A stretch of 64,000 bases of DNA from contig JARKPR010000078.1 of the NCBI GenBank assembly GCA_029975165.1, positions 1-64,000 on the forward strand, in the 5' to 3' direction. Shown piece after piece: positions 13,454-40,729 of the stretch. The position numbers and the translations under genes were made by a program. The notes under the pieces were generated by a model. The model saw only the letters and a list, made by a program, of their open reading frames with translations. It did not search any database and was not told the origin of the DNA. How positions within the stretch are numbered: the first letter of the stretch is position 1; every line of letters starts with the position of its first letter. This DNA comes from Selenomonadales bacterium (GTDB lineage Bacteria; Bacillota; Negativicutes; Sporomusales; UBA7701).

Positions 13454-13454
13454 C

Positions 13455-16030: not shown

Positions 16031-16043
16031 AACTGTACTTATG

Positions 16044-16078: not shown

Positions 16079-16095
16079 CACCCGGATTATGCGAT

Positions 16096-17124: not shown

Positions 17125-17139
17125 ATTCGTTACCTCTTT

Positions 17140-17592
17140 TTAAGGAAGTTCAAACCAAGCAGCTAAAACTGCGTTTTTCTGGTTTTTGTCCCAATACGGA
17201 GGATGAGTTCCTAATTTGTTATCGCAGTACTCATATAGGTCTGTGCCTTTAGGCAGTCCTAGTTTTGAAGGGACATAACTTAACGAACTGTATGAATTTG
17301 TAGGAATATGCCTCTTATAACAAAGAAGGTGTAGAATCCCCAGCGGGAATTCTACATTGATTAACTGGTCCTTACTAGGGTCCAGCGTTAAGCGATAAAC
17401 TACTTTATTGGGATTAGTGCGGTTTAGAATAATATCGAAATTGGTTTCAAACCAGTTCATTAATTCACCGACATCCGCTGTTTCAAGGGTAACTAGTCGA
17501 CCTTTTTCCAAAAGCATGGGGGATTGTTTTGTTCCTTCAAGAACCGCAAATCTGAGTTGCCCAGTGAGAATATGAAAAGCCAATATACGCAT
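17140..17592 (-). CDS. Hypothetical protein with RNase-H/RuvC-like N-terminus, kinase partner
   Basis: 150 residues, starting at ATG 17592 after GAGGAG. The opening RILAFHILTGQLRFAVLEG reads like the first two strands of a RuvC/RNase-H fold (hydrophobic strand, small loop, second strand), as in DUF3010-like proteins. The Asp normally found in the first strand is replaced by His. A later stretch, IILNRTNPNKVVYRLTLD, is again strand-like, and the end is helical. It may be a recognition or effector subunit for the kinase 15 bases downstream. Family assignment is tentative. Confidence 0.55.
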   Translation of the reverse strand: MRILAFHILTGQLRFAVLEGTKQSPMLLEKGRLVTLETADVGELMNWFETNFDIILNRTNPNKVVYRLTLDPSKDQLINVEFPLGILHLLCYKRHIPTNSYSSLSYVPSKLGLPKGTDLYEYCDNKLGTHPPYWDKNQKNAVLAAWFELP

Positions 17593-17751
17593 CGCGTAAC
17601 TCCTCGCTACTATTTTCAACTACAATCTTCGATAATAGCTATCAAAATCCTGCCATTTTCTTGATATTATCACCATGACCGGTTACTGTTACCGGCAAAG
17701 GGAACGGCTCCCGTCCTGCTGCCAAGTGTTTAAATGTCTCATCTTTTTGAA

Positions 17752-17788
17752 AAAGCATAGGCGAGTCCGAAGGGCTCGCCTATGCTTT
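17752..17788. terminator. Bidirectional terminator-like hairpin
   Basis: A perfect 14-bp stem (AAAGCATAGGCGAG / CTCGCCTATGCTTT) with a 9-nt loop. Short A and T runs on the two sides suggest it could terminate in either direction. Confidence 0.65.
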
Positions 17789-18031
17789 CAGATTCTATAA
17801 AAGTAAAGGCCAGGTATTACTCTCGGCCCATTGACCTTTTTTGATGAGTATGGAATTAAATAACGACAATGGCCGTTTGGAATCATTAAATGTCCAAACG
17901 GCCATCTTCAGGTAATAGGTAGCACTAATAATGGGCTAGATTAGGTAACTTTCAAGTTGTTTGTCTACTTGGCCACCTAAATCCCCCCTTCAAAATGTAA
18001 ATTTTCGACCACTAGTTTGGACTCCTCTAAA

Positions 18032-18056
18032 AGAAAAACCGCGTGCCAACGCGGTT
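18032..18056 (-). terminator. Terminator of the GNAT-like/small acidic protein pair
   Basis: An 8-bp stem (AACCGCGT / ACGCGGTT) is followed on the minus strand by five T, 24 bases beyond the stop codon at 18080. Confidence 0.8.
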
Positions 18057-18079
18057 AATTAATTGTGTCCCAAAGCCAA

Positions 18080-18304
18080 TCATTTTTTCCAAGGTAACAT
18101 TTCTTTTTTAATTTCAAAATGTTTGAGTTGCTCTGTGGATAACTCTGAACATAATAAACCATGATTTGTGCAATACTCGTCAATTCTAGGCAAATCATAA
18201 GTAAAATCATCATTGAAGTTAGCTATTAAAATTCCGCTTTCAGGTTCTTCAATATCATCATACGGGTTATCGTCATTCAAATTCAAAGTTATCCCCCTTG
18301 CCAA
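18080..18304 (-). CDS. Small acidic protein paired with the GNAT-like gene, 74 aa
   Basis: Begins MARGITLNLNDDNPYDDIEEP, strongly acidic, then NFNDDFTYDLPRIDEYC and a basic KKEMLPWKK end. It overlaps the upstream gene by 16 bases, so the two are translationally linked. The pattern of a GNAT-like protein with a small acidic partner recalls toxin-antitoxin or immunity pairs, but no family was recognised and the roles are open. Confidence 0.6.
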   Translation of the reverse strand: MARGITLNLNDDNPYDDIEEPESGILIANFNDDFTYDLPRIDEYCTNHGLLCSELSTEQLKHFEIKKEMLPWKK

Positions 18305-18747
18305 GTAAAAGCTTCTAACAACTTTATTGGATTATTGAGTCGCATTTTGCGGCCAACTTTTGTTACACCAAGTTTCACGAAAAAACCTTCCGACTCTTCT
18401 TTGAAAATCCAAATAAGATTGCCACCGAGTTTTAAATCAAGACTTTTCTGGACGGCAAAAGCCATCAATGAGCAGCCAACATACTTATACTTCATAGGTC
18501 GCTTCGACTCTAAAAGCGCCACGTCTAAAGCTCCGCCAGTAATGGAATTAAACGCGATTAGTCCTTGATATGACGTATCTCCAGGAACGACAAGCCCATA
18601 AACTTCGTATTTCTGCGAGATACTAAGACGCCAAGGAAGCTCCCATTCTTTTAAAGCACCGATTTCCTCTGTTGATAAACATCGTATTTCCGCAGGTATC
18701 CTAATTTTTGTAACTACATCAATAACACTATACTTGCGATTCTCCAT
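18289..18747 (-). CDS. GNAT-like hypothetical protein, 152 aa
   Basis: Starts at ATG 18747 (MENRKYSVIDV) after AGGGAT; a longer frame reaches further upstream without a site. The central part (YGLVVPGDTSYQGLIAFNS, VALLESKRP, KYKYVGCSLMAFAVQKSLDL, GNLIWIFKEESEGFFVKLGV) follows the strand-helix order of GNAT acetyltransferases. It includes a loop-helix (YVGCSLMAFAVQKSL) at the place where acetyl-CoA binds. The usual Q/RxxGxG/A loop is weak. It is first in a two-gene operon with the acidic 74-residue protein. Confidence 0.65.
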   Translation of the reverse strand: MENRKYSVIDVVTKIRIPAEIRCLSTEEIGALKEWELPWRLSISQKYEVYGLVVPGDTSYQGLIAFNSITGGALDVALLESKRPMKYKYVGCSLMAFAVQKSLDLKLGGNLIWIFKEESEGFFVKLGVTKVGRKMRLNNPIKLLEAFTWQGG

Positions 18748-19135
18748 ATTAATCCCTGCTCTCATCATTATACTCGTGATTTATAATAACTCAAATTTGT
18801 GCTCAGGGTTTTGTGGCGAAACCAAACATAATACTATTATCGATATTCCCAAAATTCACATTTCAACATTGCCAAACAACCGGCGATAGCCGCCTAATGA
18901 CGCTCTTGGGCGAGCCCTTCCCCGCAAGTACCTTTGGCAGCAATATCCATTCTCAAATTTGAAGACCCAAATATAGAATATCCTCCTATATGTAAGGAGG
19001 TCGCTTAGGGTCAACGAGGCCCCGACCTGCGCCGGAGTAAGTTTCCGGCCCTCCGAATCTTGGCTCTAGAATTGACTTTAAGGGCAGCCGCTGTCAATAC
19101 AAATGATTTTTATGACTAGTTTTCTTGCTTACTCA
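18748..19135. other. Intergenic region between the GNAT-like pair and the tns operon
   Basis: 388 bp. The only structure I noticed is a short inverted repeat CCTCC...GGAGG near 18982-19000. No gene, terminator with T-run or promoter is obvious. Confidence 0.5.
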
Positions 19136-19432
19136 CTAACTGAACCTTGCAACTATCTTCGTCATTCTGGAGTCGTCAGGGTTGTATCCAGGCCGCCCCC
19201 GGGAGAATCGCTCCGCCATCATTGTCAAGTCCTTCATGTCGCCGACTCGGAATAACCGCCAGCCAAGGGAAGGATTTGAATTGCTATGGCCGGCTGTTTG
19301 GTACGCGCAGAGCACAAGGCTGTTCGCCCTGCTTAACCCCAGGCAAAAGGGTTCGACTGTGCGCAATCCGCCTCCGTAATGGAACTGTAACATGTGCCGC
19401 TCCTGGATTGCCGATTCGATTGTCTCGTTCAT
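19136..19432 (-). CDS. Small WYL-domain-like protein at the end of the tns operon
   Basis: 98 residues. The sequence fits the WYL fold consensus: an initial helix TIESAIQERHMLQFHY, then GGLRTVEPFCLGLSRANSLVLCAYQTAG and WRLFRVGDMKDLTM. It is the domain alone, without the usual HTH. The start follows AAAGGAGCTG, and the gene is 24 bases downstream of the second tniQ, so it is the last gene of the tnsABC-tniQ operon. WYL domains bind ligands or nucleic acid and regulate several defence systems. Here it might regulate or modulate transposition, which is inferred. Confidence 0.7.
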   Translation of the reverse strand: MNETIESAIQERHMLQFHYGGGLRTVEPFCLGLSRANSLVLCAYQTAGHSNSNPSLGWRLFRVGDMKDLTMMAERFSRGRPGYNPDDSRMTKIVARFS

Positions 19433-19456
19433 CTCCGACAGCTCCTTTCAATGCTC

Positions 19457-20464
19457 TCAGGCGATAGAGTTTATCAGGCTTTCCTTTACCATCGCGCCTT
19501 CCACTTGATGCGCGGGCAGTTGGAAAAGCAGCCAGTCGCAAGGGTAGCTACCTTCTATCATCTGCTTCAGAGAACCGAACATCCTTCCGATTACCAGGAG
19601 ATGCCTCATCGGGTCGTGGTCTTCACCCCTTAACACGGCCATCGGCCAATACGGCTGGCATTGCGTGAGTCTCACCGAATGCAGGAAGCTTTCTCCATAG
19701 TGCTGAGCCATCTCCTCGTGAGTCAAAGCGTCCCATCCTAACTCGAACAGCCTTGCACGATACACTTTCTTGAGCTTTCCCGGTTCGAAAGCAACCCTTG
19801 TCTCTAGCAGCATTTTCACGTCCTGGGCATAAACAAGCGCCGCTCCGAGGTGCCCGACGATGTCTTCGGAACGCCCCGGAGCGAATAACGGGTGCCCGTT
19901 CCGGCAAGCGGCCCGAAGCGGATGGTAGTGCTGCCCGCTAATCCCGATTTTATCCCCGCACTCTTCGCAAGATGACATCAGCTTCCTTTTGTGCTCCGAG
20001 CACACGCTGACGCCGGGAGCCATATGTACTCTGTGCCAGTATGGCTCGCCGTGCCTTTCCATGTCTTCGCGCACACAGTCTGGGCAATATCTTAGCTTGG
20101 CCAAGAACCTCGACGTGCTGGCGCATATGCTGTTCGTCCCGTACGTTCTGGTCACGGCCCCTCCGAACATGCTCCAGAACACCTTGTTCCGTCTCTTTGC
20201 CCCGAGAAATGCCGTGTAGAATGGGTAAAGCGTGTGCTTTTCAATCACCGAGTGAACGGACCTGTATTTCCCCATACCGGTCACATCGACGAGCAGTGAT
20301 ATCTTTTTCGGCAAATCCCTCACCACATGCATGAAAGGCTTATTGAACAAGTCCATGGAGGTCTGCCTCAGGGAATGGTTCCTCATGTGAACCTGATAGC
20401 GCGCTACAGCGCTGTAAAGCAGCTCGTCCTCGTGAATCTCCGGAAAGTACTTCAGGTCGCTCAA
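19457..20464 (-). CDS. tniQ: TniQ-family protein (second, short target selector)
   Basis: 335 residues. The TniQ N-terminus YFPEIHEDELLYSAVARYQVH is followed by a zinc-finger region with CPDCVREDMERHGEPYWHR, HMAPGVSVCSEH and SCEECG. It lacks the long C-terminal HTH region of the neighbouring TnsD-like protein, so it resembles the short TniQ proteins that work with other targeting modules. The start is TTG 20464, preceded by AAGAAGGGGGAAG, inside the 3' end of the upstream gene. Its N-terminus aligns well with that of the long paralogue, showing that this start is real. Confidence 0.92.
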   Translation of the reverse strand: MSDLKYFPEIHEDELLYSAVARYQVHMRNHSLRQTSMDLFNKPFMHVVRDLPKKISLLVDVTGMGKYRSVHSVIEKHTLYPFYTAFLGAKRRNKVFWSMFGGAVTRTYGTNSICASTSRFLAKLRYCPDCVREDMERHGEPYWHRVHMAPGVSVCSEHKRKLMSSCEECGDKIGISGQHYHPLRAACRNGHPLFAPGRSEDIVGHLGAALVYAQDVKMLLETRVAFEPGKLKKVYRARLFELGWDALTHEEMAQHYGESFLHSVRLTQCQPYWPMAVLRGEDHDPMRHLLVIGRMFGSLKQMIEGSYPCDWLLFQLPAHQVEGAMVKESLINSIA

Positions 20465-22358
20465 CCTTGCTTCCCCCTTCTTTCGAAATTGTCGCCAAGA
20501 CGTCGGTTATCGCTTGTTCGGTAGAAGGTCGCTTTCTCGACAAGCCGGCGGTCTTGCTCACACGGTATTTGGTCAACGGCGCCCCGGCCCGGACCAGTTC
20601 CTCGACGCTCCACAACACCTTCCTAAGTTCGAAATCCTCAATCGGCTCCGCCGCCTCTTTCAGCAATTCATTCGTGCGGGGCAACCGCGCCTCACCGACT
20701 ACGTGCGCGGAAGGTCCAAGGCCCGCAACGTCAAGCACTCTTCGCTTTGTAATCCTTTCCGGACGTCCTGACGTGCCGAGCAAACTTGACATTGCCTTGC
20801 CGACCTTCTGGCATAGGGTCTCGTCGCGGGCGTTCCAATCCACGGAGCCCTTTCTCGCCGCCGTTGTCTTACGCTTTACAACCTCGGGAAGGTGGCTTTC
20901 CATCCAAGGACGGTCGTTCCGCCATAGCCAGTTGTACGCCCCTCTGTCCTGCCTTCTCAGTTGGGTTCGTGTCAAGCTTTGGTCACTAGCCATCAGTGCC
21001 GTCAATACCGCCCTGTGTTTCTCGCGCTCCACCTCGGTGTCGCGGTCTCGGCCAGCGCCTTCGTCCCCGGCCTGAAGCGAGGCTACCTTCTTCAGGTGGT
21101 TGGAGACCGTGCTCCTGGCCACGCCAAGTGTCCTTGCGATGGCGCGTATGCTTTTGCCGTCTTGCCTTAACTTACTCAATGCTTCATTCCAGGCCGTTCC
21201 GTAGTTGAGCACCTTGCTCGCCTTGCAGCCCCCTGCCTCCGGCGAAGCCGCCCTGCGAGTGTATGTGAAACCACAGTCGCAGGTGAATTTGCCGGTGAGA
21301 GTGCCCCCAACGGTTTTTGACGCGAAGCTGTTAATCCTGTTCTCCCCGAAATGGCTGAGTGCTCTGTTGAAGCAGGGCCATGGCCCGGGGCCGAACGGCT
21401 CGTATCTGCAGTCCGAGTCCCTGACAAACTCTTGGAACGAGCCGAACAAGAACCTTATGACCAGTAGCGTCTTGACGGGACTGACAGCCTTGCGACAGTG
21501 GCGGAAGGCCCTGAACAACCAGTTGTCGCCTGAATTCAGGTCGAGTTCGGAGTCCAGATTAGCCAAAAGCTCCTGACCATAGTGGCTGATGAAACTTTCT
21601 CCCAGCCTGGACTGCCGGAGAGTCCCGGACAGGGTCACAAGCCCCAGCTTCTTGAGCCTTTCTTGAAACGCATGGTGCAGTGCATCCGGCTCGTAATGAG
21701 GATAGGTCGCTAGCACTTCCTGCGCGTCGAGGGCGTAACCGAGCATCGTTTTTTCGACGGAACCCTCTCCCAGTCCCAGCGCTCCCTCGCGGAGGGGGTG
21801 GCCGTTCGGACAGAATTCGGCGAGCGCCATGTATTCGTATTTGCCTGATTTGTACTCGTGCCCGCAGGACTGACACTTCGAAATCAGCTGGAGCCGGTGG
21901 GAAGGGCAGGCCAGGACGCCTGGCGCGCGGTGCAACCTGTGCCAGTAAGGCTCTCCGAAAGACCTGATATCTTCTTCGACGCATGCGGGACAATAATACA
22001 GGCCGTTCCCTTTTGAAGAGCCGTAGATTCCCAGGACGCTTCGCGGACTCCGTCCCCGGTTCCCGTTGGCCATCATGTCCATCGCTTCAAGCCTCGCGCC
22101 TTCGTGCGCGAACGCGCCGTAGAACGGCAAAAGGGTGTGCCGGAGGATGACGTCGCTTTCACTCATATTCCGGTCAAGCGGGGATTGCGCGAGAATATGG
22201 GAAATCCTGCTGGGGAGGTCAATCTCCGCATGGAAGTTTCTTCCCCCGGCCAGCTCCGCCAACGCCTGGGCGGAGCTGGACACCGTGTGCACTCTGTAGC
22301 GCGCTATGGCGCTGTAAAGCAGTTCATCTGGCAAAATGGACGGAAAGTACATACCCAT
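20340..22358 (-). CDS. tnsD: TnsD-like target-site selector (long TniQ protein)
   Basis: 672 residues. It has a TniQ domain (YFPSILPDELLYSAIARYRVH), a zinc finger (CPACVEEDIRSFGEPYWHR, CPSHRLQLISKCQSCG), a middle region, an HTH (KSIRAIARTLGVARSTVSNHL) near residues 400-425, and a C-terminal segment with RRQDRGAYNWLWRNDRPWM typical of TnsD. In Tn7 the protein binds a fixed chromosomal site and recruits TnsC. Here the likely site is in comEC. The last 41 residues overlap the next gene in another frame and look non-native; a single-base change in the five-G run (20473-20477) would end the protein at a TGA overlapping the next start. Confidence 0.92.
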   Translation of the reverse strand: MGMYFPSILPDELLYSAIARYRVHTVSSSAQALAELAGGRNFHAEIDLPSRISHILAQSPLDRNMSESDVILRHTLLPFYGAFAHEGARLEAMDMMANGNRGRSPRSVLGIYGSSKGNGLYYCPACVEEDIRSFGEPYWHRLHRAPGVLACPSHRLQLISKCQSCGHEYKSGKYEYMALAEFCPNGHPLREGALGLGEGSVEKTMLGYALDAQEVLATYPHYEPDALHHAFQERLKKLGLVTLSGTLRQSRLGESFISHYGQELLANLDSELDLNSGDNWLFRAFRHCRKAVSPVKTLLVIRFLFGSFQEFVRDSDCRYEPFGPGPWPCFNRALSHFGENRINSFASKTVGGTLTGKFTCDCGFTYTRRAASPEAGGCKASKVLNYGTAWNEALSKLRQDGKSIRAIARTLGVARSTVSNHLKKVASLQAGDEGAGRDRDTEVEREKHRAVLTALMASDQSLTRTQLRRQDRGAYNWLWRNDRPWMESHLPEVVKRKTTAARKGSVDWNARDETLCQKVGKAMSSLLGTSGRPERITKRRVLDVAGLGPSAHVVGEARLPRTNELLKEAAEPIEDFELRKVLWSVEELVRAGAPLTKYRVSKTAGLSRKRPSTEQAITDVLATISKEGGSKVERPEVLSGDSRGRAALQRCSALSGSHEEPFPEADLHGLVQ

Positions 22359-22389: not shown

Positions 22390-24012
22390 TCAAACCTCGG
22401 AATCCTCGATTATCCCCTTGTCTCTGAGCAGTTCGCTCACAAGCTCCCCGGACTTGGCTTGTTTGCCTACCAGTCTCAAGTCCCCGGCGTTGTACTTCGG
22501 CTCGACCCTTTTGCGCTTCGCCTTGCCCGCTTTCAATTCGCCGACCCGTGCGAACGCCTTGCGCATCAATGACGGAAGGTCGATACCATGCCCTTCCCTT
22601 ACGACTTCCTCCGCAGCCTTGACAGCCACCTCGTGTTCAATGCCTGCCCGAACGAGCCAGTCTAAGATTTTTCCCGTGTCGGCGGCGGCGGGGTCGAAAT
22701 CCGAGGTGCTTGTTATAACCGGCTTACGCGCCAAAGAATGGACCATCTCCCCCGTCCACTGAACGTACAGGTCTTCATATTTGGCCAACAGAAGGTTATC
22801 GCGATTCGTTAGGGCTTGTATCATCGGTTGTATAAGCCTTAGGCACTCTCCTGCTACCTCCCGTATGAACTCTGGCGTAATAGTCGGGACGCCCTGGAAT
22901 ATCGCCTTGTATTGGGCGAACATGTACAGCTTTACTGCGATGTCCGTGATTCCCCCAGATTCTTCGAAGAGCACTTTCTGGAACTCGGACGTGAGTTCGG
23001 CGGGCTCATCAAGCCATTGGTATTTCCACAGCGCTCTCGTGAAGAGCTCCCATTCGTCGTGGTAGCTAAGCTGGTCCCAAAACATGTCCCCTTGTCCTGT
23101 CGCGCGCCTCGCATTCCTAAACTGCTTCGTGACATGACGGATGGCTTTTACGGTCCCGATAGGAACTACCGGAACTCCCAGTGTGTTCACTAGGGAAACG
23201 AAGAAGTTTAGCATGTTGTCTGGTCCACCGCTTTTCGAATGGCTGAGATTCTGGATTTCGTCGATGACCAGGATGCCGAGCGCATGTATCCAGGCAAGAT
23301 GCCTTATTACCCCCACCATCTCGTCGATTGTCTTGCGCCCGCACCCGTATTTGTGCAAATAGCCTTTCTCTCTCTCCTTTCCCAAAGCGCTGTCGAAAGC
23401 GGCCAGGATGTCGAGGCAAAGCGCTCTCAGGGAACCATCATGAGGACAGTCGAGTTTCAGCCAGACGACCTGTTGGAAGTTTAAAGGCTTGTCGTTGTAG
23501 CGGGTATGGCTTATAACTTGAGGGTACGTTAGAAGTATCCGCTCCATCGCGGTCGATTTTCCGATGCCGCTGTAACCGAACAGGGCGAACCCCGTTGCGC
23601 AAGGTTGGCATCGGGCTGCTATGCTCATGCTCGCCGCATCTTCGTCTTCGCGCAGTTTCGCGTAAAATGCTGCTGACAAGGGGTTCCTGGCCTTGTATCC
23701 ACCCCTTATCGCCCTCGATACCGCCTGTTCGAGTAATATGTGCCTGCTCAAAGGAACAATTAGTTCCGTGAGTCGCTGGATGCAGTGCCCGCGAATTTCG
23801 GTTGGAAGCTCTCTCTCGGGGATGGTGAACGAAGGTAGCATTCTTATCTTTAAAATCGCCTCCTCTTCCCTCATAAAAGGAGGAAGCGCCTCAATCCAAG
23901 GGTTTCCGGCGTAGTCGGAAATTTCGACCTGCCTGTATTGCGCCAAACACCTTGTCCCCGTGAGAATCCTCCCTTTGGCTGCCCAATCCTGGGAAATCGC
24001 GGTGTTGTTCAT
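22390..24012 (-). CDS. tnsC: TnsC-like AAA+ ATPase, transposition regulator
   Basis: 540 residues. Walker A is GYSGIGKST (146-154) and Walker B is ILVIDEIQ in the mid-240s, followed by sensor-like KAIRHVTKQFRNARRATGQG. As in Tn7 TnsC, it should assemble on target DNA marked by a TniQ protein and activate TnsA/TnsB. It lies 17 bases downstream of tnsB and 31 bases upstream of the TnsD-like gene in the same operon. Confidence 0.94.
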   Translation of the reverse strand: MNNTAISQDWAAKGRILTGTRCLAQYRQVEISDYAGNPWIEALPPFMREEEAILKIRMLPSFTIPERELPTEIRGHCIQRLTELIVPLSRHILLEQAVSRAIRGGYKARNPLSAAFYAKLREDEDAASMSIAARCQPCATGFALFGYSGIGKSTAMERILLTYPQVISHTRYNDKPLNFQQVVWLKLDCPHDGSLRALCLDILAAFDSALGKEREKGYLHKYGCGRKTIDEMVGVIRHLAWIHALGILVIDEIQNLSHSKSGGPDNMLNFFVSLVNTLGVPVVPIGTVKAIRHVTKQFRNARRATGQGDMFWDQLSYHDEWELFTRALWKYQWLDEPAELTSEFQKVLFEESGGITDIAVKLYMFAQYKAIFQGVPTITPEFIREVAGECLRLIQPMIQALTNRDNLLLAKYEDLYVQWTGEMVHSLARKPVITSTSDFDPAAADTGKILDWLVRAGIEHEVAVKAAEEVVREGHGIDLPSLMRKAFARVGELKAGKAKRKRVEPKYNAGDLRLVGKQAKSGELVSELLRDKGIIEDSEV

Positions 24013-24029: not shown

Positions 24030-26144
24030 CTAAGCCAATGCGTTCTGAAGCATCTCTCGGCGTTGTTGTTCCTTATGCGTTGATTGGACCTGATGTGTTT
24101 CGGGAAATTCCTTGGATGGCTGCTTGTCCTGCTTACTTACCCATGCCTCTTTCGCTCGCAGTGCCTGATTTTCCACCGCGCGGTTGGCCCGCATGTTCGC
24201 AAATCTTGCGGAGGAGCTCATCGGGTTCTTGCGAAGCGCTTCCTCCGTCAATTTTTCCGCTTCTTTTCTGATTTGTTTGATATGAGCTTGGTATTCCACG
24301 TCTCCGGGGATGTTGATGTCCTCTTCGGCTATTCTTGTTTCGATGGCTTTCCTGTGAAGATAAAGCTTCCGCTCGTTTTCACCAAGCCCTCGCAATGCTT
24401 GGTCTCTTTCCGAAAGCCGGCATTCGATGAATTTCTTTCTCTTTGGCTCCCAAAGCTGAACCGTGCTCAAGTCCCTCGGGTCGTAGGAAATCCTGAACTT
24501 GTGCCCTCTCAATCCGTCGTACCATCCTTCGTTCATGGCGGTGTCGCACACGTAATCCGCTCTCATGAAGAGAATACCGTGCCTGGTGACTTTGCCAAGG
24601 GCGTGGGGCAAGAGGTTGAACTTGACGAAGTCGTCGTCTAGGGTTCTCAACGCGCCTCGCTTTTCCTTAATTCCCCATTTCCACAGTTCTCTGGGAATCG
24701 GGTCTACTCCGGCCTTGGCAGTTTGCTCGTCAAACTTGTAATGCCCCATGTGTCGCCCGTTATGATTCAGAATGCTACGAATCATTATCTTGTACATATC
24801 CTCCATAGTGAGGCGTGCTTTTTTCTTCTGGAGGTCCTTTGTTGCATTCGCCTTGCTGATTTCTGGACACGACCACGGCAGTCGGGCCCCTTCAAATTTC
24901 TTGAAATGGGATTCAACCACAGCCTTCATGTCTCCCCTGTAAGAAGCCGTGTTTTCCACTTGAACCCCCAATGCCGTTATCAGGTTGGTGACGGCGCTGT
25001 CGCTGGCAAATTCGCCCCTGTCGGCGATTATGCGTCCGGGCAAACCCTTCGCTGGCCATTGCCAAGGCTGGATATTTATCCCGAAACGTTTGCAAAATTC
25101 AACTTTGTCCATGTACGCGTTGTACAGTGCCTGCATCGCTCCAATCCAGCTTGGCCCCTCCAGCCCGATGTATAGGCCAGCGGGCATCCTAGAGTAAACG
25201 TCAACCACGAGGTAAATCACGCCCTGACCAATAACGAGAGAACGGTCATGGCTTGACACTAGATACTCCTTTGTAATCGTGGCGTCCACTTGGTAGCAAT
25301 CGCCCGGGCCCATCGTGTCCTCAATGGTTGAGCCAAGGACCGGCCGTTCCTTCAGCTTGTATTCACGCTCGCCGATAGTCCGGATTTTGTCCTGTACTGG
25401 GTCCATCTTCTTTTTGTACCAATACTTGAACTGCGCCAGAGAAGGACATTGGTGGGCCGGAAACAGGTTAGGCACCATCACGCCGTCCCGCTCTTCGTAA
25501 CCGGACGAGAAATATCTTCCAAGCATTTCGTCGTAGGCAGCCTTGAAGGCTTTCGCTCCTTCTCCTCTATAGAAAAGAGCCAAGCCGTTCGCAAAGATTC
25601 GCTCGATATCTTCCGTCACGATGATGCCCTTGGCGTCTGGATTTTTTTCTGTCCTGCCGTTCGGTCTGCCAAGCTTGTTTTTCACCTTGCGCGCCGCCTT
25701 GTCCCGCCCCCGAAAGTTCGGAAGCAACGCGTTGGGATTCATGCCGCCTTGCCAGAATTGACGGAGATACTTGTTGGCCGTAGGCTTCGTTATTTTGAAT
25801 CTTTTCATTGCCTCCAGCACCAATGGGCCGCGCTTTCTCGGGTCGAAGATATCCTCGTTCCGAGTGAGGTATTCTACGACTCTCATCGCCTGTTCGCGCC
25901 TATCCTTGCTCTTCTCGCCAATCTCTTCCTCGGACACCTTCATGAAGTCGAACACCATTTCCTTGACGAGGGCCTGCCCGTTTAAAACGTCTTCTTCGAG
26001 GTCAGCCGTTAATTTGGCTACGGGGAAACCCTTCTTGGAGAGCATGTCTATGACCACCGAGTGTTTCTTGCCGAGTTTCAAGACCCTCATTAACTTTGGT
26101 GTTTTTTCGCCAGGCCACTCAAGCACGCTGTTTATGCTAAGCAT
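24030..26144 (-). CDS. tnsB: TnsB-like DDE transposase
   Basis: 704 residues of the Mu/TnsB/retroviral-integrase fold. Catalytic residues are visible as Asp near 286 (CYQVDATI), Asp near 373 (IIADRGEF) and Glu near 410 (VVESHFKKFEG). The C-terminal Mu-type beta-barrel follows, with helices for end binding in the N-terminal third. It cuts 3' ends and joins them to target, producing the 5-bp duplication seen at the element ends. It overlaps tnsA by 8 bases. Confidence 0.95.
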   Translation of the reverse strand: MLSINSVLEWPGEKTPKLMRVLKLGKKHSVVIDMLSKKGFPVAKLTADLEEDVLNGQALVKEMVFDFMKVSEEEIGEKSKDRREQAMRVVEYLTRNEDIFDPRKRGPLVLEAMKRFKITKPTANKYLRQFWQGGMNPNALLPNFRGRDKAARKVKNKLGRPNGRTEKNPDAKGIIVTEDIERIFANGLALFYRGEGAKAFKAAYDEMLGRYFSSGYEERDGVMVPNLFPAHQCPSLAQFKYWYKKKMDPVQDKIRTIGEREYKLKERPVLGSTIEDTMGPGDCYQVDATITKEYLVSSHDRSLVIGQGVIYLVVDVYSRMPAGLYIGLEGPSWIGAMQALYNAYMDKVEFCKRFGINIQPWQWPAKGLPGRIIADRGEFASDSAVTNLITALGVQVENTASYRGDMKAVVESHFKKFEGARLPWSCPEISKANATKDLQKKKARLTMEDMYKIMIRSILNHNGRHMGHYKFDEQTAKAGVDPIPRELWKWGIKEKRGALRTLDDDFVKFNLLPHALGKVTRHGILFMRADYVCDTAMNEGWYDGLRGHKFRISYDPRDLSTVQLWEPKRKKFIECRLSERDQALRGLGENERKLYLHRKAIETRIAEEDINIPGDVEYQAHIKQIRKEAEKLTEEALRKNPMSSSARFANMRANRAVENQALRAKEAWVSKQDKQPSKEFPETHQVQSTHKEQQRREMLQNALA

Positions 26145-26934
26145 TGGTTTCCACCTCCAGTTTGATTGGGTTGTTGAATCTTAACGGTTGGGACATGTCG
26201 ACCCTGATTTTTCGCGTGGCTATAAAGTGCCGGAGAAGAAGCAGGCTCGTCCCAATTCCCAGGCTCAATTTCGCGTCAAGCCAATTGCACATGTGTATCG
26301 GTGCTTGCCCGCTCTCCAACGCCTCTTTGAACTTATGCGCGGCGTAAGCTATGCCCTCGCTGTCCGGAAGCCCTTTGACCCCCTCCAAAGAATATGCGTC
26401 CCTCACGAACATGAGGTTTTTCACGAGGGCTTTCGGAGGCGTTTTTTCGGTAAGAATCTTCCAGCTGGCTCCGAGGTCGGTCCAGTACTTTCTTTCGATT
26501 TCGAGCTTTTCCAATATCCGCTTCATCCGTCTGGGGTTATTAATTTCCGATTCCCACTTGCAGGCGAACGCTAAAGTCCGGCCGTCGGCCTTGGTTACAA
26601 CCAAGTCCGTGGTCATAACGAGGTATTCCTTGGTCTTGTTGTCCTTGGGATGCCTTATCCCCAACCGAGCCGCTAAGTCGATGGTTTTAGCGAGAGGCAA
26701 TGGAAATTGCTCCCGAATGTCGGTCACGTCTTGCATCCATTGCAGTTGATAGAAGTTTCCCCGTTCGTTGTCGGAGAGGAAGACTTGTTCTCTATCCGTC
26801 TTTAGCCCTTTCACACGGGTCGAACGTCCTTGACTGGGAACTTCTCTTACCGTTAGCCATGGTCTGTAATCCGCTCCAGTACCCTGTCCAAAACCTGCCT
26901 TCAGCTTGTTCACGGTGCTTTTGCCTCTTCCCAT
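26137..26934 (-). CDS. tnsA: TnsA-like 5'-end endonuclease
   Basis: 265 residues. Restriction-endonuclease-like core with YLVMTTDLVVTKADGRTLAFACKWESE split over the catalytic Asp (near 130) and Lys (near 148), followed by a winged-helix C-terminal region. TnsA cuts the non-transferred strand, so the element should move by cut-and-paste and not by replicative transposition. ATG 26934 follows GAGGGGAAA. It is the first gene of the operon tnsA-tnsB-tnsC-tnsD-tniQ-WYL. Confidence 0.93.
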   Translation of the reverse strand: MGRGKSTVNKLKAGFGQGTGADYRPWLTVREVPSQGRSTRVKGLKTDREQVFLSDNERGNFYQLQWMQDVTDIREQFPLPLAKTIDLAARLGIRHPKDNKTKEYLVMTTDLVVTKADGRTLAFACKWESEINNPRRMKRILEKLEIERKYWTDLGASWKILTEKTPPKALVKNLMFVRDAYSLEGVKGLPDSEGIAYAAHKFKEALESGQAPIHMCNWLDAKLSLGIGTSLLLLRHFIATRKIRVDMSQPLRFNNPIKLEVETNA

Positions 26935-35309: not shown

Positions 35310-36161
35310 TTACATCCCTAAAGCCGACAACGTCTTTTCGTCGATTGTTCCGTTGGCCGGCAAACCGGACGCTTGCTGGAAATCCTTGATGGCTTTAATC
35401 GTTTTTACATCACGAACCCCTGTGGGGTCTACGTTGTAACGGAGCAGCCTGAGTTTTTTCTGGATTTCGAGAAGGTTCATCGAGTCAAGCTTTTGTTTGG
35501 TCGCAAGATTGACTGTTCCGTCGCCATCGAGTCCGAAGCTAGATTGAAAGCTCTGGACGGCGGTCACCGTCTTCTCGTCCCGTGTTCCCAATGCGTCGCA
35601 CTCGTATCCCAAGTCCTTCAGTTTCCGTTGGATGTCGGACAGGCTGAATGACTCCAGACGTTTTTTTGTCTCGCTTCCGATAATCCCGTCTACGGCCAAG
35701 CCGTAATCTTCCTGGAATTTCTTTATTGCCGCCACGGTTTGCCCGCCCTTGATGCCGTCGGCCGTTCCGGAATCGTACCCTAGGTCGTTCAGCTTTCTCT
35801 GCGCGGCTCGAATGTCCATCAGGTCGCCGACTGCGCCGGATGAACTGTAACCCGTGCCGGGGCTTGACGCCGCGGAATAGTGCGACGAGTGGGAATTGTG
35901 GGAACGGTGAGAGCTGTGCGAGCGGTGAGAATAGTGCCTGTACTGTTCGAAATTGTCCGCGTCGCCACCTATCCGGGCCAAGTCGGGAGCGGCCCAGGAT
36001 GGGACCAGATACAACGGACTATTGCGGAGGGAATCCTTGCCGCTTTCAGAAACTTTTGGGGGCTTCGCTTCGAACTGCTGCGCGGAAACGAGGCCGGCCT
36101 GGGACATTAACCACCAAAAAGTAACGCCTGCGTACGACAGGTACCGTTGCCACCCCTTCAT
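35310..36161 (-). CDS. hxsA: His-Xaa-Ser repeat protein HxsA, exported, with peptidoglycan-binding domains
   Basis: 283 residues, start ATG 36161 after GAGGAGGG. N-terminal signal peptide (YAGVTFWWLMSQAGLVSAQQ). Residues 76-96 are seven consecutive His-Xaa-Ser triplets (HYSHRSHSSHRSHNSHSSHY plus S), the signature of HxsA. Three PG_binding_1 domains follow (about 106-153, 155-207, 209-283; repeated DLGYDSGTADGI, DLGYECDALG, LLRYNVDPTG). It is the presumed substrate of the two radical-SAM enzymes encoded just upstream, modified on the repeat before export to the cell wall. The exact modification is unknown to me. It is last in the operon hxsD-hxsB-hxsC-hxsA. Confidence 0.9.
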   Translation of the reverse strand: MKGWQRYLSYAGVTFWWLMSQAGLVSAQQFEAKPPKVSESGKDSLRNSPLYLVPSWAAPDLARIGGDADNFEQYRHYSHRSHSSHRSHNSHSSHYSAASSPGTGYSSSGAVGDLMDIRAAQRKLNDLGYDSGTADGIKGGQTVAAIKKFQEDYGLAVDGIIGSETKKRLESFSLSDIQRKLKDLGYECDALGTRDEKTVTAVQSFQSSFGLDGDGTVNLATKQKLDSMNLLEIQKKLRLLRYNVDPTGVRDVKTIKAIKDFQQASGLPANGTIDEKTLSALGM

Positions 36162-36200
36162 CAAGCACCCTCCTCATTCCATGCCTTCCGTTGCTCCCCG

Positions 36201-37337
36201 TTAATCGTAGGCAATTGTTATTGGCACGATGTTCGAACTCTGTCGCGCCGCTGTTCCGAACAACCCGGCGCAATTCCCTTTGGCCTGGCACGTGCCGCAC
36301 GTAGGTAGGTAAGTCTTCTTCCAGGTGGAAATGCTGTCTCGCGAGAAACGCCACAATGATTTAGGCAAAAGGCAGTGCGGTAGATTGTATACTGAAACGT
36401 TCATGGCCCTCTGGTGAAGAATTCTTACGCTCTCCTCAAGCGAGTCCCGGTAGTCCTCTGGGTCGACCCAGACCCGCTCAAGGTTCTCGGCGGCAAACCC
36501 GGAGGTCTCCATTCCCATTAGCGCCACGTGGCACGCAAAGGGCAGGTTCATGTAGATGAATTCCGCCAGGTTCGGAAGACACCGATAGTTTTGGCGCAGT
36601 AAAACCACCCTTATTTCCACCGGCTGGCGCAATCGAGCGAGATTGTGCAAACCCAGTATGGTCTCCTTGAAACCGCCTCGCGCCCCGACTATTTCGTCGT
36701 GCTGGACGTCGTTGTCCGCATAGAGCGGTATGCACGTCACCATTCGCCTGTGGGCGCGGGACAAGCACAGGGCGAGGTCGAAGTCCGAAAGCCGCCTCCC
36801 GTTCGTCAGGAGCGACACGTCAGCCTGTGGAAACCGCTTGGCGCAGACCGTGAGAAGTTCCGACAGACGATTCGCGTCCAAGGTCGGCTCTCCTCCGGTT
36901 ATACCTATGTGTTCGACCTGGGATTTCCCGGCCAAGTCGAGAATCCTCATTGCGGTCTCGTAGTGGTGGCACGGTTCGTCGCTGACTTGCGGGCACATTA
37001 TGCATTTCGAATTGCAGAAGTCGGTCGTGAAGAGGACGTTGTCCCGGGAAGCCGCCTCCCAAAGCACTTGGACCGTTCCGTCGGGCATAAGGCTTATGAT
37101 GTCGCCGTCCTTGACGGCTGCGGCCTCGCTTTCGGGGATTCCGGTCACCGACGGAATCCTGCCTGCCACGCTGGGCGCCCCGACACCGAGGAATCCCGCG
37201 AAACCCCTCCAAGTGGACGGCGGCTTGTCCGAAACCAGTATCGAGTCGCGGGCCCACGGCGCCGCCGACAAATTGACCTTCGCCCTTCCGAGGACGGGGG
37301 TGCTTATGCTGGACGGTGTTCCCCTTAACGTCTTCAT
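36201..37337 (-). CDS. hxsC: Radical SAM maturase HxsC (His-Xaa-Ser system)
   Basis: 378 residues. The radical-SAM cluster motif is FCNSKCIMCP (CX3CX2C), followed by GITGGEPTL for SAM binding. The C-terminal CGTCQAKGNCAGLF provides cysteines for an extra cluster. The N-terminal 110 residues are a leader domain (GDIISLMPDGTVQVLWEAAS). It starts in a 4-base ATGA overlap with hxsB, so both enzymes are made together. The HxsC family name follows the scheme of paired radical-SAM enzymes next to HxsA and HxsD (Haft and Basu). Confidence 0.87.
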   Translation of the reverse strand: MKTLRGTPSSISTPVLGRAKVNLSAAPWARDSILVSDKPPSTWRGFAGFLGVGAPSVAGRIPSVTGIPESEAAAVKDGDIISLMPDGTVQVLWEAASRDNVLFTTDFCNSKCIMCPQVSDEPCHHYETAMRILDLAGKSQVEHIGITGGEPTLDANRLSELLTVCAKRFPQADVSLLTNGRRLSDFDLALCLSRAHRRMVTCIPLYADNDVQHDEIVGARGGFKETILGLHNLARLRQPVEIRVVLLRQNYRCLPNLAEFIYMNLPFACHVALMGMETSGFAAENLERVWVDPEDYRDSLEESVRILHQRAMNVSVYNLPHCLLPKSLWRFSRDSISTWKKTYLPTCGTCQAKGNCAGLFGTAARQSSNIVPITIAYD

Positions 37338-38788
37338 AGCTCCATATCCTTGAGGTTGCGCGACGTAATCCAGGCCCAGAAAAGGTTGTTTAGTCGGTTG
37401 TCGTTGCGTAGAAGGAGCTCAAAGATATGGTCGATAATGCCTTTGTTTTTCTGGCAGAACCCGCTGTCAGGCCGGCTGCCGGTAACGTCGCCCGACTCCG
37501 CGTAATACCTGACGGGGTCGGCGCCGCAGTATATCTGATACGCGCAGGTCGCGCACCCGGGCATGACTTCAACGCAGCTCTTGTGGACCAAGTCCTGGAC
37601 CAGCCTTCCGTGAAAAAGCTCCTCGTAGGAGTTGTCCAGAACGTTTCCCATGCAGAACTTTCTGTCGCCCGTTCTGGCGAGCATCCGTGCCTCGTCGGCG
37701 GGATAGACGTCTCCGTTGTAATCGTAAATCACGCCGCTGATGCCTGCGCCGCTCGGCGACTGCAGGTCGACGAATCCGGTAGCGAAAGGGGTCAATATCC
37801 TCTGAAGCATAAGGGCGGCGTAATATTCGACGAACGGCGTGCCTCTGAAGTTCATGTCAATTATGTAATCCAGTGCTGTCTTGTACGCCACGAGGAATTC
37901 CCCCGGCGAATAACCTAGGTCGTTTAGGTTTGCCGCTGCGTATCCGTATGGGTTCAGGGACCGGAGGAAAACCCCGTTGAACCCCAGTTCGGCGTAATGG
38001 TCTACGACTTCTGGCAGTCTGTTCAGATGGTCCCGGGTGACGGTAAGCAAGGCCGAGCAGCCGTCTTGGCCCAAATATTCTCGCGTCAAGTCCAGTTTTT
38101 TTCTGAACGTTTCATATCCGCTGCCGCCGTCTCGGCGCTTCCTGTGCAGGTCGTGAAGCTGTCCCGGCCCGTCCAGCGAAGTGGACAGAGAAACTCTGTG
38201 CTTTTTGCAAAAGGTCAGCATTTCCGGTGTAACCATGGTCAAATTGGTGCATATGACGAATTCAAGGTTCCTTCCGGCAAATCGGTTGACGACTTCGGCG
38301 TATCGAATCGTTTCTTCCACCAGGTCCCAGTTCAGCAGTGGCTCGCCGCCTTGGAACTCAATCTTGATGGCTGGCGACGGAGACTCGAATATAAGGTTGA
38401 CTACGTGCTTCGCCGTGTCCCAGCTCATGTCCGTATCGGCCCTGTCCCGGTCGGAGCTTGACGCGTGACAATAATCGCAGCGAAAGTTGCACCTAAGAGT
38501 GGCGACAATCATGTGCAAACTTGTGAACGCCTTCAGATATCCTTTCCTCGTCCTCAACTTCGTCGCCAGCATTTCAACGGCTAGTTCTTCATCGTCGTCG
38601 TCGACCACGAGGTGCTTGCCCTTGAAACGGTAGTAAAGCTCTCCCATCCTCTCTCTGTTGCCTGAAAGCAGCCGGTCGAAGTCACTACGGGAGAGCCACA
38701 GGTATTCACCAGCCTGGTTGACAACGAGGAATCCTTGCGGCATCACTCGATAAGTAAAGGGGAGCAATTGCACGTCCTCATGCAGCAT
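37334..38788 (-). CDS. hxsB: Radical SAM maturase HxsB with SPASM domain (His-Xaa-Ser system)
   Basis: 484 residues. An N-terminal RRE-like region (LPFTYRVMPQGFLVVNQAGE) precedes the CX3CX2C motif RCNFRCDYC and FQGGEPLLN. The C-terminal SPASM region contains FCMGN, then CVEVMPGCATCAYQIYCGAD and FCQKNKG, giving ligands for auxiliary clusters. It belongs to the anaerobic sulfatase-maturase/HxsB type, which modify peptides by hydrogen abstraction. It starts 5 bases after the hxsD stop codon and overlaps hxsC. Confidence 0.87.
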   Translation of the reverse strand: MLHEDVQLLPFTYRVMPQGFLVVNQAGEYLWLSRSDFDRLLSGNRERMGELYYRFKGKHLVVDDDDEELAVEMLATKLRTRKGYLKAFTSLHMIVATLRCNFRCDYCHASSSDRDRADTDMSWDTAKHVVNLIFESPSPAIKIEFQGGEPLLNWDLVEETIRYAEVVNRFAGRNLEFVICTNLTMVTPEMLTFCKKHRVSLSTSLDGPGQLHDLHRKRRDGGSGYETFRKKLDLTREYLGQDGCSALLTVTRDHLNRLPEVVDHYAELGFNGVFLRSLNPYGYAAANLNDLGYSPGEFLVAYKTALDYIIDMNFRGTPFVEYYAALMLQRILTPFATGFVDLQSPSGAGISGVIYDYNGDVYPADEARMLARTGDRKFCMGNVLDNSYEELFHGRLVQDLVHKSCVEVMPGCATCAYQIYCGADPVRYYAESGDVTGSRPDSGFCQKNKGIIDHIFELLLRNDNRLNNLFWAWITSRNLKDMEL

Positions 38789-38793
38789 CAGAA

Positions 38794-39123
38794 TCAGCCC
38801 CTGCCGTTTATGGGACGGAACGCTTGCTCATAAATAGCCTCCCGAAGATGGCCAAAGCGCTTGTCCAAGTCCATCCTTACTTGCTGGTCCAAGACTTCGT
38901 TGCAAAATTCTCCGAGACCATCCCTCATCTCGTTAATCGCTTGCCCACGCTTTACTTCGAACCAAATCCCGACATGTGTCTCTTCGACAGGCTCTATGCG
39001 TATGAAAAAATCTTCACGGAACTTATATGCCGCCGCAAAGACTGCTTCACGCTCATACAGGGCTTTCGCTAGGTGAACGCAGAAAACACCTGGTTTCACT
39101 TCGTTAATAACGCCATCATTCAA
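38794..39123 (-). CDS. hxsD: His-Xaa-Ser system protein HxsD
   Basis: 109 residues. It contains KALYEREAVFAAAYKFREDF, a strand pair, and near the end FCNEVLDQQVRMDLDKRFGH and LREAIYEQAF. The spacing NEVLDQxxR...LREAI..QAF matches the HxsD family (conserved LLNDYxLRE-type motif). Its function is unclear; in the system it is the small partner, possibly a substrate or enzyme adaptor. It is the first gene of the operon, about 85 bases inside the right-end TnsB repeats of the transposon. Confidence 0.8.
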   Translation of the reverse strand: MNDGVINEVKPGVFCVHLAKALYEREAVFAAAYKFREDFFIRIEPVEETHVGIWFEVKRGQAINEMRDGLGEFCNEVLDQQVRMDLDKRFGHLREAIYEQAFRPINGRG

Positions 39124-39209
39124 TGATTGTTCCCTCCATTGCCTAATTCAGACAATCTTTTCTCCTTTTCGATAAAACAATTAAAAACACCTCCTAAAAT
39201 GTGGAACTT

Positions 39210-39275
39210 CAGTAAATATGTTAATCATCAGTAAATACGATAATTCTCAGTAAATATGCTAATTTCTTTTATCCA
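39210..39275. repeat. Transposon right end: three tandem 19-bp TnsB-type sites plus terminal repeat
   Basis: On the plus strand CAGTAAATATG or CAGTAAATACG starts at 39210, 39229 and 39248, an exact 19-bp period; each unit continues with TTAATCAT, ATAATTCT or CTAATTTC. The last runs into the 16-bp terminal repeat ending at 39275. Close packing at this end and wide spacing at the other is the Tn7 layout. Confidence 0.9.
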
Positions 39276-39280
39276 GCGTA
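39276..39280. repeat. Target-site duplication, right copy (gcgta)
   Basis: Direct repeat of bases 2653-2657, immediately outside the right terminal inverted repeat. Confidence 0.93.
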
Positions 39281-39985
39281 GCCGCCAAACAGCACCCCGT
39301 TAACCACCGCCGCGTCGCCGGGAGCCATCGTCGCGCGGATGAGGCCGGTCATCTTCTGCCGCCACGCGGCCAGAGCCGCGGCCGCGGAACGGCTCTCGCC
39401 CGGCGCGGCGCGGAAATCCTCCGCCCCGGCCGCCAGCCTGGCGGTCACGCCCGCCAACCGGTAAGCCGCGACCATATCGGCCTGGCCGGGATTATTGTAG
39501 CCATGCAGAGCGGCCATCCGGCCGCGGACGGCCACCTTGTCCCCATAAGCAGCCACCGGCGCCGTGTGCGGCTGGCGCAGGCTCACCGCCACCCCGCCTT
39601 TTGCCGGCAGGCGCACCCCGCCGGCCTCCGCCGCATTCGCGGCCACCACATACCTCACCCTGACCGTCTCGTGGTCAACATCCTCCCACCGCGGCAGGTC
39701 GGCCACCGTACCGTGCACCACCACCGTCTGGCCGGCGAAGCGGCTCACGTCGTAAGGGTCGGCGACCGTAGCATGGCCGCAGCGGATCATGCCGGCAACA
39801 AAAAACAGCGCGGCGGCAACGGCCGCTACCGACCGCGCCTCCCGCCGCACCATCACCAGGCCGGCCGCAAACAGCGCCGCCGCCAGCGCGCCCAGCACCG
39901 CCGCCGGCACGCTCGCCAGGCCGGCCGCCCAGACGCCGGCGGCGAACGCCGCCGCCAGCAAAGGTAGAGTTCCCGGCATAGCCAT
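39276..39985 (-). pseudogene. comEC: comEC, 5' fragment
   Basis: Encodes the N-terminal 237 residues of ComEC: membrane helices (LPLLAAAFAAGVWAAGLASV), then the OB-fold/DUF4131 region (YDVSRFAGQTVVVHGTVADL). It breaks off after VVNGVLFGGYAG, where the frame meets a TAA made by the transposon end (TGGATAA). The rest is at 1005-2657. It lies 110 bases downstream of comEA. The cell should lack a full-length ComEC unless the element excises. Confidence 0.93.
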
Positions 39986-40095: not shown

Positions 40096-40656
40096 CTACA
40101 AAGAAATCTTGTCCTTGATCCTGTTGAAGACGCTGTCGCCGACGCCGGGCACCTTCTTCAGTTCGGCCACATCGCGGAAGGGGCCCTTCGTCCGGCGGAA
40201 ATCCACGATCCGCTGGGCCAAAACGGGGCCGATGCCTGGCAGCTTCTCCAGCTCGCTCTTGTCGGCCGCGTTGATGCTCACCTTGTCGGCGGCGCTGGCC
40301 GCCGCGGCGGGTCCCGACTCCGCGCTCAGAGGCACGGTTATCTGCATGCCGTCCTTGACAAGCTGGGCCAGGTTGACCCGGTTGGCGTCCGCCCCGGGGG
40401 CAAGGCCGCCGGCAGCATTGACGGCATCGATCACGCGGCTTTCCGGGCCGACCCTGTACACACCGGGCTTATTCACCGCGCCGCTCACATACACGATCGG
40501 CTGGCCGCCCTGGACCGCGCCCGGCGGCACCGGCACCACGCTGGACGCCTTCTCCACCACCGCCGTATTCCGCCAGTGGTCATAGAAAAAACTGCCGGCG
40601 ACGATCACGGCCGCCAGAGCCAGGATTATCAGCCAGTGCCTCTTCAATCCGCCCAT
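40096..40656 (-). CDS. comEA: ComEA, DNA receptor for natural transformation
   Basis: 186 residues from ATG 40656, after GGAGGGTG. A membrane anchor (HWLIILALAAVIVAGSFFYD) is followed by an SLBB domain (YVSGAVNKPGVYRVGPESRV) and two helix-hairpin-helix motifs (VSINAADKSELEKLPGIGPV and FRDVAELKKVPGVGDSVF). It binds double-stranded DNA at the outer face of the membrane and delivers it to ComEC. It is intact, although its partner gene comEC is interrupted downstream. Confidence 0.95.
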   Translation of the reverse strand: MGGLKRHWLIILALAAVIVAGSFFYDHWRNTAVVEKASSVVPVPPGAVQGGQPIVYVSGAVNKPGVYRVGPESRVIDAVNAAGGLAPGADANRVNLAQLVKDGMQITVPLSAESGPAAAASAADKVSINAADKSELEKLPGIGPVLAQRIVDFRRTKGPFRDVAELKKVPGVGDSVFNRIKDKISL

Positions 40657-40729
40657 GACACCCTCCACTTACTTCTTGCTGTATATTTCGCCACCAAATT
40701 CACTCTTCCTACAAGCAAACCGGCAAAAA

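Follow-up and report, generated by a model that had tools for sequence, protein, structure and literature searches.

A His-Xaa-Ser radical SAM operon carried by a Tn7-like transposon inserted in comEC of a Selenomonadales bacterium

The window, a stretch of 64,000 nt from contig JARKPR010000078.1 (GCA_029975165.1) of a Selenomonadales bacterium, contains a His-Xaa-Ser (hxs) operon encoding two radical S-adenosylmethionine (SAM) proteins, located at 35310-39123 inside a Tn7-like transposon that interrupts comEC. Families were assigned using NCBIfam (TIGR) and Pfam profiles with their cut-offs, and defence-type matches using PADLOC and Pfam. An earlier note on this DNA had listed HxsD, HxsB, HxsC, and HxsA as all present, and we identified each of them.

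38794-39123, minus strand: hxsD (TIGR03976, 67.7 bits; cut-off 50)
37334-38788, minus strand: hxsB, radical SAM maturase with extra Cys near the C-terminus and an N-terminus resembling the recognition element (RRE) of ribosomally synthesized and post-translationally modified peptides (RiPPs) (TIGR03978, 570.5 bits; cut-off 370; structure model)
36201-37337, minus strand: hxsC, second radical SAM protein (TIGR03977, 329.6 bits; cut-off 267.9)
35310-36164, minus strand: hxsA, exported-looking, with seven His-x-Ser (HxS) triplets and three PG_binding_1 stretches (tract, PF01471, operon; below the TIGR03979 cut-off)

HxsB, HxsC, and HxsD exceeded their cut-offs, while HxsA was identified by its HxS tract, PF01471 stretches, N-terminus, and operon, with no claim that it is a TIGR03979 equivalog. 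The tract, HYSHRSHSSHRSHNSHSSHYS, comprises seven HxS triplets and is the sole tract with at least four triplets in the 303 window open reading frames (ORFs) of at least 60 aa. The three PF01471 (PG_binding_1) stretches were matched with an E value of 8.2e-44. Read by eye, the N-terminus resembles a signal peptide, and the start is likelier at the ATG one codon inside, at 36161. The product is probably exported and wall-binding, in line with the modified surface protein suggested by the earlier note, the modification itself being a prediction. The genes had been described as overlapping in a single operon. One operon is the natural reading of their arrangement, but only hxsB and hxsC overlap, by 4 bp; gaps of 5 and 36 bp separate hxsD from hxsB and hxsC from hxsA, respectively. 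The hxsD start lies 152 bp from the right end of the transposon (39275), next to that end as claimed.

A tnsABCD gene set, a 5-bp target duplication, and repeated end sites are hallmarks of Tn7-like transposons. We found all of these around the operon, together with a second TniQ-type gene and terminal repeats, which bears out the proposed carrier.

2658-39275: Tn7-like transposon, 36,618 bp (ends, duplication, empty site in congeners)
2653-2657: target-site duplication GCGTA, left copy (present once where comEC is intact, in three congeners)
39276-39280: target-site duplication GCGTA, right copy
2658-2683, plus strand: left terminal inverted repeat TGGATAAAAGAAATTATCCTATTTAC, imperfect, pairing with 39250-39275
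39209-39275, minus strand: right end, with 17-nt repeats at 39209, 39228, and 39247 (spacing 19 nt) plus the terminal repeat
26137-26934, minus strand: tnsA (PF08722 and PF08721)
24030-26144, minus strand: tnsB (PF09299)
22390-24012, minus strand: tnsC (PF13401, PF05621)
20340-22358, minus strand: tnsD (PF15978, 268 bits; PF06527)
19457-20464, minus strand: second tniQ/tnsD-like gene (PF06527, 61.6 bits)
1005-2636, minus strand: comEC, C-terminal part (PF03772, PF00753)
39269-39985, minus strand: comEC, N-terminal part, the frame entering the transposon by 7 bases (PF13567; intact congener counterparts)

At the left boundary GCGTA is followed by TGGATAAAAGAAATTA, and at the right boundary TAATTTCTTTTATCCA is followed by GCGTA. 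The terminal inverted repeat spans 26 nt and is imperfect (2658-2683 against 39250-39275). The flanking duplication, the paired terminal repeats, and the repeated right-end sites delimit the element as 2658-39275. In three congeners, similarity to the left flank of the window stops at base 2657, comEC forms one uninterrupted frame, and the two window flanks, once joined, give a single unbroken alignment with each of them. The exact insertion site is therefore fixed, and the insertion either arose recently on the time scale of the genus or has been lost from other members. These observations prove that a Tn7-like element carries the hxs genes.

The earlier note had said that hxs genes lying at the same chromosomal place in relatives, without transposon ends, would speak against carriage; the three congeners instead have a whole comEC there. 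HxsB exceeded its cut-off in just two of the 28 genomes of the order, those of the window and of Sporomusa acidovorans. Transposon carriage therefore stands. We found nothing in favour of hxs being chromosomal housekeeping genes that adjoin a transposon by chance, and we regard this as extremely improbable, given the position of hxs inside ends flanked by a target duplication, the absence of the insert from the congeners, and the rarity of HxsB in the order.

The split gene, comEC, which the earlier note does not mention as the target, encodes the DNA-uptake channel. Just upstream, a comEA-like gene with SLBB and helix-hairpin-helix domains is intact (40096-40668). ComEC was matched in 244 of the 250 class genomes. 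Among the matches listed, the best ones were nearly all one long frame, apart from the window, one congener (G024), and partial or contig-edge cases; none of the listed matches showed a further Tn7-like insertion in comEC. A single insertion of this element in comEC was observed, leaving TnsD targeting of comEC as a candidate only. In the congener G024 (L180, G024:C37 1-1613), comEC is cut at about residue 351, a different point from that in the window, beside unrelated sequence. The adjoining 400-aa ORF (272-1474, minus strand) was without a Pfam match. This break may reflect a second mobile element or an assembly fault.

The earlier note had proposed looking for hxs operons within Tn7-like ends elsewhere; they do occur, and we delimited two more. 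On Aeromonas salmonicida plasmid 4 (NC_009349), a 16,924-bp element (2961-19884) is flanked by the duplication AGATC and has three end sites per side. Its genes run in one direction in the order hxsDBCA, DUF5334, tnsA, tnsB, tnsC, tniQ, and tnsD. The hxs genes lie between the right end and tnsA, as in the window, with hxsD 529 bp from that end. The element also carries tet(E), and none of its genes is annotated as defence. The same stretch is split into two pieces on a second A. salmonicida plasmid. In a third record, also a plasmid (H65, OL332704.1 143804-150380), the tns genes match those of the Aeromonas element at 100% identity, but the match breaks off inside tnsA and the hxs half is missing. 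In Sporomusa acidovorans (NZ_FNAM01000003.1 = G010:C20 = G042:C20), which belongs to the same order as the window host, a 60,786-bp element (95500-156285) is flanked by AACGC in a gene that reads, by eye, as an IS110-type transposase. Its order is tnsABCD followed by hxsADBC. There, tnsB is present in two overlapping frames (G010:C20 96665-98520), and a second tnsC-tnsD pair lies near the far end (about 153-155.5 kb).

The Tns proteins share 22-29% identity with those of the window in Aeromonas and 29-37% in Sporomusa (TnsA, C, D), and the HxsB proteins share 40% and 58%, respectively. Aeromonas takes a near-basal position in the HxsB tree (89/82, not starred), and the window groups with Sporomusa and Pelosinus as its sisters (99/97). 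On these figures, Tn7-like elements probably took up hxs at least twice. The position of hxsDBCA between the right end and tnsA, in the same direction, in both the window and Aeromonas might indicate that hxs belongs to the transposition machinery or its control. We consider this very unlikely in view of the other gene order in Sporomusa and the absence of any Tns protein within the flanks (mostly ≤10 kb) at 105 of 107 other hxs loci.

Those 107 loci (L048-L154) were compared with the window, giving 108 in all; they include 7 picked phage or plasmid records and 20 viral contigs, and the last, L154, has a doubtful HxsB. We rejected Tn7 as a general hxs carrier, with Tns proteins detected at two of the 107 loci by single-sequence phmmer, a search that, given the short flanks, would therefore have missed far-off or divergent Tns genes. 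For neighbour counts we used 44 genomes, picked by eye among 80 for their long loci. TniQ was encoded in 10 of these genomes (20 genes) and lay within 25 kb of hxsB in two (0.19 expected, P = 0.017); this proximity is weak evidence because one of the two cases, Sporomusa, was known beforehand. The other, Methylobacter G072:C47, was not counted as a Tn7-hxs case: the distance is about 20 kb, TnsB is matched only weakly, and TnsA is unmatched.

HxsB exceeded its cut-off in two of 398 phylum-sample genomes (window included) and in five of the 369 genomes from the class to which a Photobacterium belongs, including two that had been picked earlier for hxs. At an E value of 1e-30, HxsB matches occurred in 410 PLSDB plasmid records, 316 of them from Klebsiella (29-31% identity among the matches listed), and also in 2 phage records and 20 viral contigs, the weakest of these being doubtful. 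The system was found in records labelled from Patescibacteria to Lokiarchaeota, which are bins with possible contamination. With the same caution about bins, the HxsB tree breaks up phyla, requiring 26 changes against a minimum of 17. Judged from sequence, hxs is a mobile accessory system of a known family that Tn7-like elements have acquired more than once. In the text available of two papers, hxs is placed at a variable island site of Vibrio parahaemolyticus (PMC6537148) and listed among genes of conjugative elements and phages in a Pseudomonas aeruginosa clone (PMC8446631). No link between hxs and a Tn7-like element was found in the literature searched, in which few subscription papers were covered, nor did titles and abstract starts among the matches listed link radical SAM proteins to Tn7. 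The main text of Benler 2021 (PMC8649781), as far as available, does not use the terms "radical SAM", "RiPP", or "competence".

Across the 108 loci, a tract of 5-10 HxS triplets (median 7) was located within 4.5 kb of hxsB in 78, and none was found farther away in 1,868 ORFs. The middle residue is free, with 15 residue kinds over 501 triplets. Since the search pattern itself fixes His and Ser, the evidence lies in the tract length. In 48 HxsB sequences, Cys100/104/107 and Cys412/415/421 are invariant and Cys445 is nearly so. The window HxsB has the radical SAM core, the three-Cys motif, and auxiliary-cluster Cys residues; the SPASM model scored 17.7, under its cut-off of 21.5.

The substrates of CteB and ChlB are precursor peptides, and anaerobic sulfatase maturase (AnSME) modifies Ser or Cys. 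The best matches of the HxsB structure model (predicted local distance difference test score, pLDDT, 93.2) were AnSME (4k38; Z 36.8, root-mean-square deviation (rmsd) 2.7, 357 residues), CteB (5why; Z 35.3, rmsd 3.7, 391 residues, model positions 10-461 including the N-terminus), and ChlB (9gm3; Z 34.9, rmsd 2.8, 355 residues). CteB was the top match of the model in Foldseek (E 6.6e-23) and of HxsB in a sequence search (5wgg, E 3.9e-31). Residues 11-81 adopt a beta3-alpha order that appears RRE-like when judged within the whole model, and the CteB alignment starts at residue 10. By its model, HxsB resembles peptide-modifying radical SAM enzymes. By analogy, HxsB and HxsC would act on the Ser and/or the His in every triplet, prior to export. 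We also considered HxsD as a PqqD/RRE-type peptide carrier and rejected this assignment, as its model (pLDDT 89.5) has a beta2-alpha-beta2-alpha order and no RRE protein was recognised among the matches listed.

HxsA could alternatively be a metal-binding or adhesive surface protein with a His-rich tract for holding metal or wall polymers, the radical SAM steps serving only to mature it. The His at every third residue and the peptidoglycan-binding domains suit such a function. However, over 5-10 triplets the tract retains both Ser and His and leaves x free, an indication that the chemistry involves the two residues alike; yet the search pattern required both. We judge this alternative unlikely.

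The analysis establishes the genes and their operon, the element with its ends and target, the conservation of the repeats, and the likeness of the HxsB model to peptide-modifying radical SAM enzymes; the chemistry, the order of steps, and the wall location are inferred. A Tn7-like transposon inserted in comEC and brought a self-contained hxs system beside its right end. HxsA would be made with a signal peptide and seven His-x-Ser triplets. In the cytoplasm, HxsB and HxsC, aided by HxsD, would use SAM radicals on His and/or Ser of the triplets, HxsB binding the peptide through its N-terminus; the likeliest changes are cross-links inside each triplet or Ser oxidation. After export, the three peptidoglycan-binding domains would anchor HxsA in the wall, and the benefit may be an accessory surface trait serving both host and transposon. 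We hold it to be probable that the hxs cargo makes a radical-SAM-modified wall protein and that this is an accessory surface trait rather than a housekeeping one.

The remaining cargo bears on what that trait might be. Its functional assignments are family matches drawn from sequence alone.

2861-8476, minus strand: DUF4011/DUF3320 helicase with a restriction endonuclease (REase) domain, PDC-S37-like (PADLOC and Pfam matches)
13202-16030, plus strand: Bil-like cluster of a ubiquitin-like gene, an unmatched 158-aa gene, a BilC-like gene, and BilD/ThiF (PADLOC and Pfam matches)

The Bil-like cluster scored 27.3 (BilA), 45.3 (BilC), and 62.7 bits (BilD) against models supplied without cut-offs. 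Its second gene (13455-13931, 158 aa) had no Pfam or PADLOC match; an E2-like protein is expected in that place. Further matches included a protein kinase near the PD-T4-6 and mad6 models, two capP-like M78 peptidases, a cll-like protein, and an IS110-type transposase. Several cargo ORFs had no family match in Pfam scans.

From this company, the earlier note had drawn a link to defence or competition. The defence-type matches on the same element are real, but we found no functional support for a role of hxs itself in either. As a defence or competition effector, the modified surface protein would block phage adsorption or act on neighbours, travelling with defence genes. Similar company was seen elsewhere. 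In the Sporomusa element, hxsA comes 33 bp after the end of a ThsB-type TIR gene (294.7 bits; L056/G010:C20 107995-108618), which is itself preceded by a PDC-M50A-like gene. In Pelosinus (L055 11881-16406), the gene after hxsADBC encodes a metallo-beta-lactamase with distant similarity to ComEC (25% identity), and ThiF, JAB, and patatin genes come next. Defence is also a class enriched in Tn7-like cargo, according to the available text of Benler 2021 (PMC8649781). Such neighbourhoods, however, amount to guilt by association, and the Aeromonas element combines hxs with tet(E) and no annotated defence gene. HxsA had no PADLOC match, while HxsB and HxsC matched only viperin models (≤45.1 bits), as expected of radical SAM proteins. 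Since hxs is on many plasmids too, its mobility does not single out defence. An effector of this kind seems to us improbable.

Neighbour clustering of the 108 loci revealed two unrelated nuclease families, SNase (PF00565) and the DNA/RNA non-specific endonuclease NUC1 (PF01223), a company on which the earlier note is silent. Pfam-confirmed members lay within 5 kb of hxs genes at 13 loci, spread over several phyla.

SNase, eight loci, Pfam-confirmed: L052, L054, L066, L067, L086, L097, L113, L114
NUC1, five loci, Pfam-confirmed: L070, L120, L127, L129, L148

Five of the SNase loci fall within the 44 genomes, and L052, L054, and L114 fall outside. Thermonuclease genes are annotated at three of the seven plasmid or phage loci, none of these being within the 44 genomes. 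A ninth SNase (L049) is 7.5 kb off. Three further NUC1 profile hits were not counted: L105 matches only an OB-fold below its cut-off, L134 matches DUF3761, and L133, which has the same HxsB, was without Pfam confirmation. Most of the nucleases have N-termini that read, by eye, as signal peptides; six genes lie within 150 bp of the hxs operon, and 17 of 18 profile hits are on the hxs strand. SNase (45 genes in the 44 genomes) was within 5 kb of hxsB in 5 genomes, with 0.16 expected (P = 7e-7), and NUC1 (18 genes) in 2, with 0.04 expected (P = 7e-4). These P values are overstated and the counts descriptive, because the clustering that prompted the counting covered the same loci.

Together with the broken comEC, these neighbours suggest, as a hypothesis, a surface barrier to foreign DNA. 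The modified HxS protein, with or in place of exported nucleases, would let mobile elements restrict DNA entry by transformation, conjugation, or phage, and the comEC insertion would work to the same end. In its favour are the excess of two unrelated families on the hxs strand in several phyla and the congener whose comEC is also cut short beside unrelated sequence. Mobile elements are further described, in the part of PMC11472951 available, as encoding DNases that prevent transformation in Vibrio cholerae and Campylobacter jejuni, with many others disrupting competence genes. On the other side, neither nuclease lay within 5 kb in 37 of the 44 genomes and none was found at 95 of the 108 loci, many with short flanks; the count drew on loci used for the clustering; the signal peptides were read by eye; and comEC is perhaps just a convenient TnsD target. 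Beside the window hxs copy itself, no nuclease family was found among the flanking ORFs scanned, several of which had no match at all. Among the possible roles, we rank a barrier to incoming DNA, free or phage, first, as a tentative choice that is still less likely than not. In the broader proposal, various mobile elements would carry hxs to form a surface barrier at which a radical-SAM-modified, wall-held HxS protein acts with or in place of exported non-specific nucleases, with DNA uptake disabled by the same Tn7-like element through its place in comEC; this proposal appears doubtful.

Several observations weigh against the modified wall protein and its suggested role, in addition to the missing nuclease at the window locus. 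Nothing in the window ties the HxS peptide to DNA. The window HxsA scored 64.6 bits with TIGR03979 (NCBIfam cut-off 121.65) and likewise fell under the cut-offs of the HxsA2-A4 models. Most HxsA proteins listed elsewhere are short, about 80-130 aa, which leaves no room for such peptidoglycan-binding domains; wall binding is therefore no general trait. The best model matches of HxsD were mixed and below Z 8 (transcription-repair coupling factor, aIF2-alpha, type III secretion chaperones) and yielded neither a fold assignment nor a role. No report of hxs chemistry or purpose was found in the literature searched, again with few subscription papers covered.

The delimited carriage of hxs by Tn7-like elements, one of them in comEC, is new, while the hxs operon itself is of a known kind. 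Three delimited hxs-carrying transposons and the nuclease excess provide concrete leads on the role of hxs. If true, the broader barrier proposal would give the hxs family its first role and would place it within the conflict that sets mobile DNA against natural transformation. The comEC insertion, plus the second comEC break in a congener, adds to the mobile elements disabling transformation genes.

The His-Xaa-Ser system (TIGR03976-TIGR03979) was predicted by Haft and Basu, as cited in the available text of PMC9062424. The window operon shares with it the four genes, with B, C, and D over their cut-offs, a tract in an exported-looking protein, and the small operon. It differs in an HxsA with three peptidoglycan-binding stretches, under the TIGR03979 cut-off, and in its Tn7-like carrier. 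HxsB has in common with CteB, AnSME, and ChlB (PDB 5wgg/5why, 4k38, 9gm3) the fold over 355-409 residues, the three-Cys motif, and further Cys residues, whereas identity is 18-22% and its substrate would be the HxS tract.

The carrier shares tnsABCD, the 5-bp duplication, repeated end sites, and defence-type cargo with the Tn7-like transposons of Benler 2021 (PMC8649781) and Faure 2023 (PMC10293859). Unlike the elements described in the available text of those papers, it sits in comEC and carries hxs. Literature searches combining comEC with Tn7-like elements led only to work on comM, and comEC with TniQ gave nothing, within a coverage that took in few subscription papers. In the available part of PMC10293859, comM is targeted by TnsF, and the Tn6022/AbaR and Tsy elements in comM resemble the window element in that a mobile element breaks a transformation gene. 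Those elements use TnsF at comM, whereas the window element has TnsD/TniQ proteins and sits in comEC. The comEC insertion fits the pattern of mobile elements that break transformation genes.

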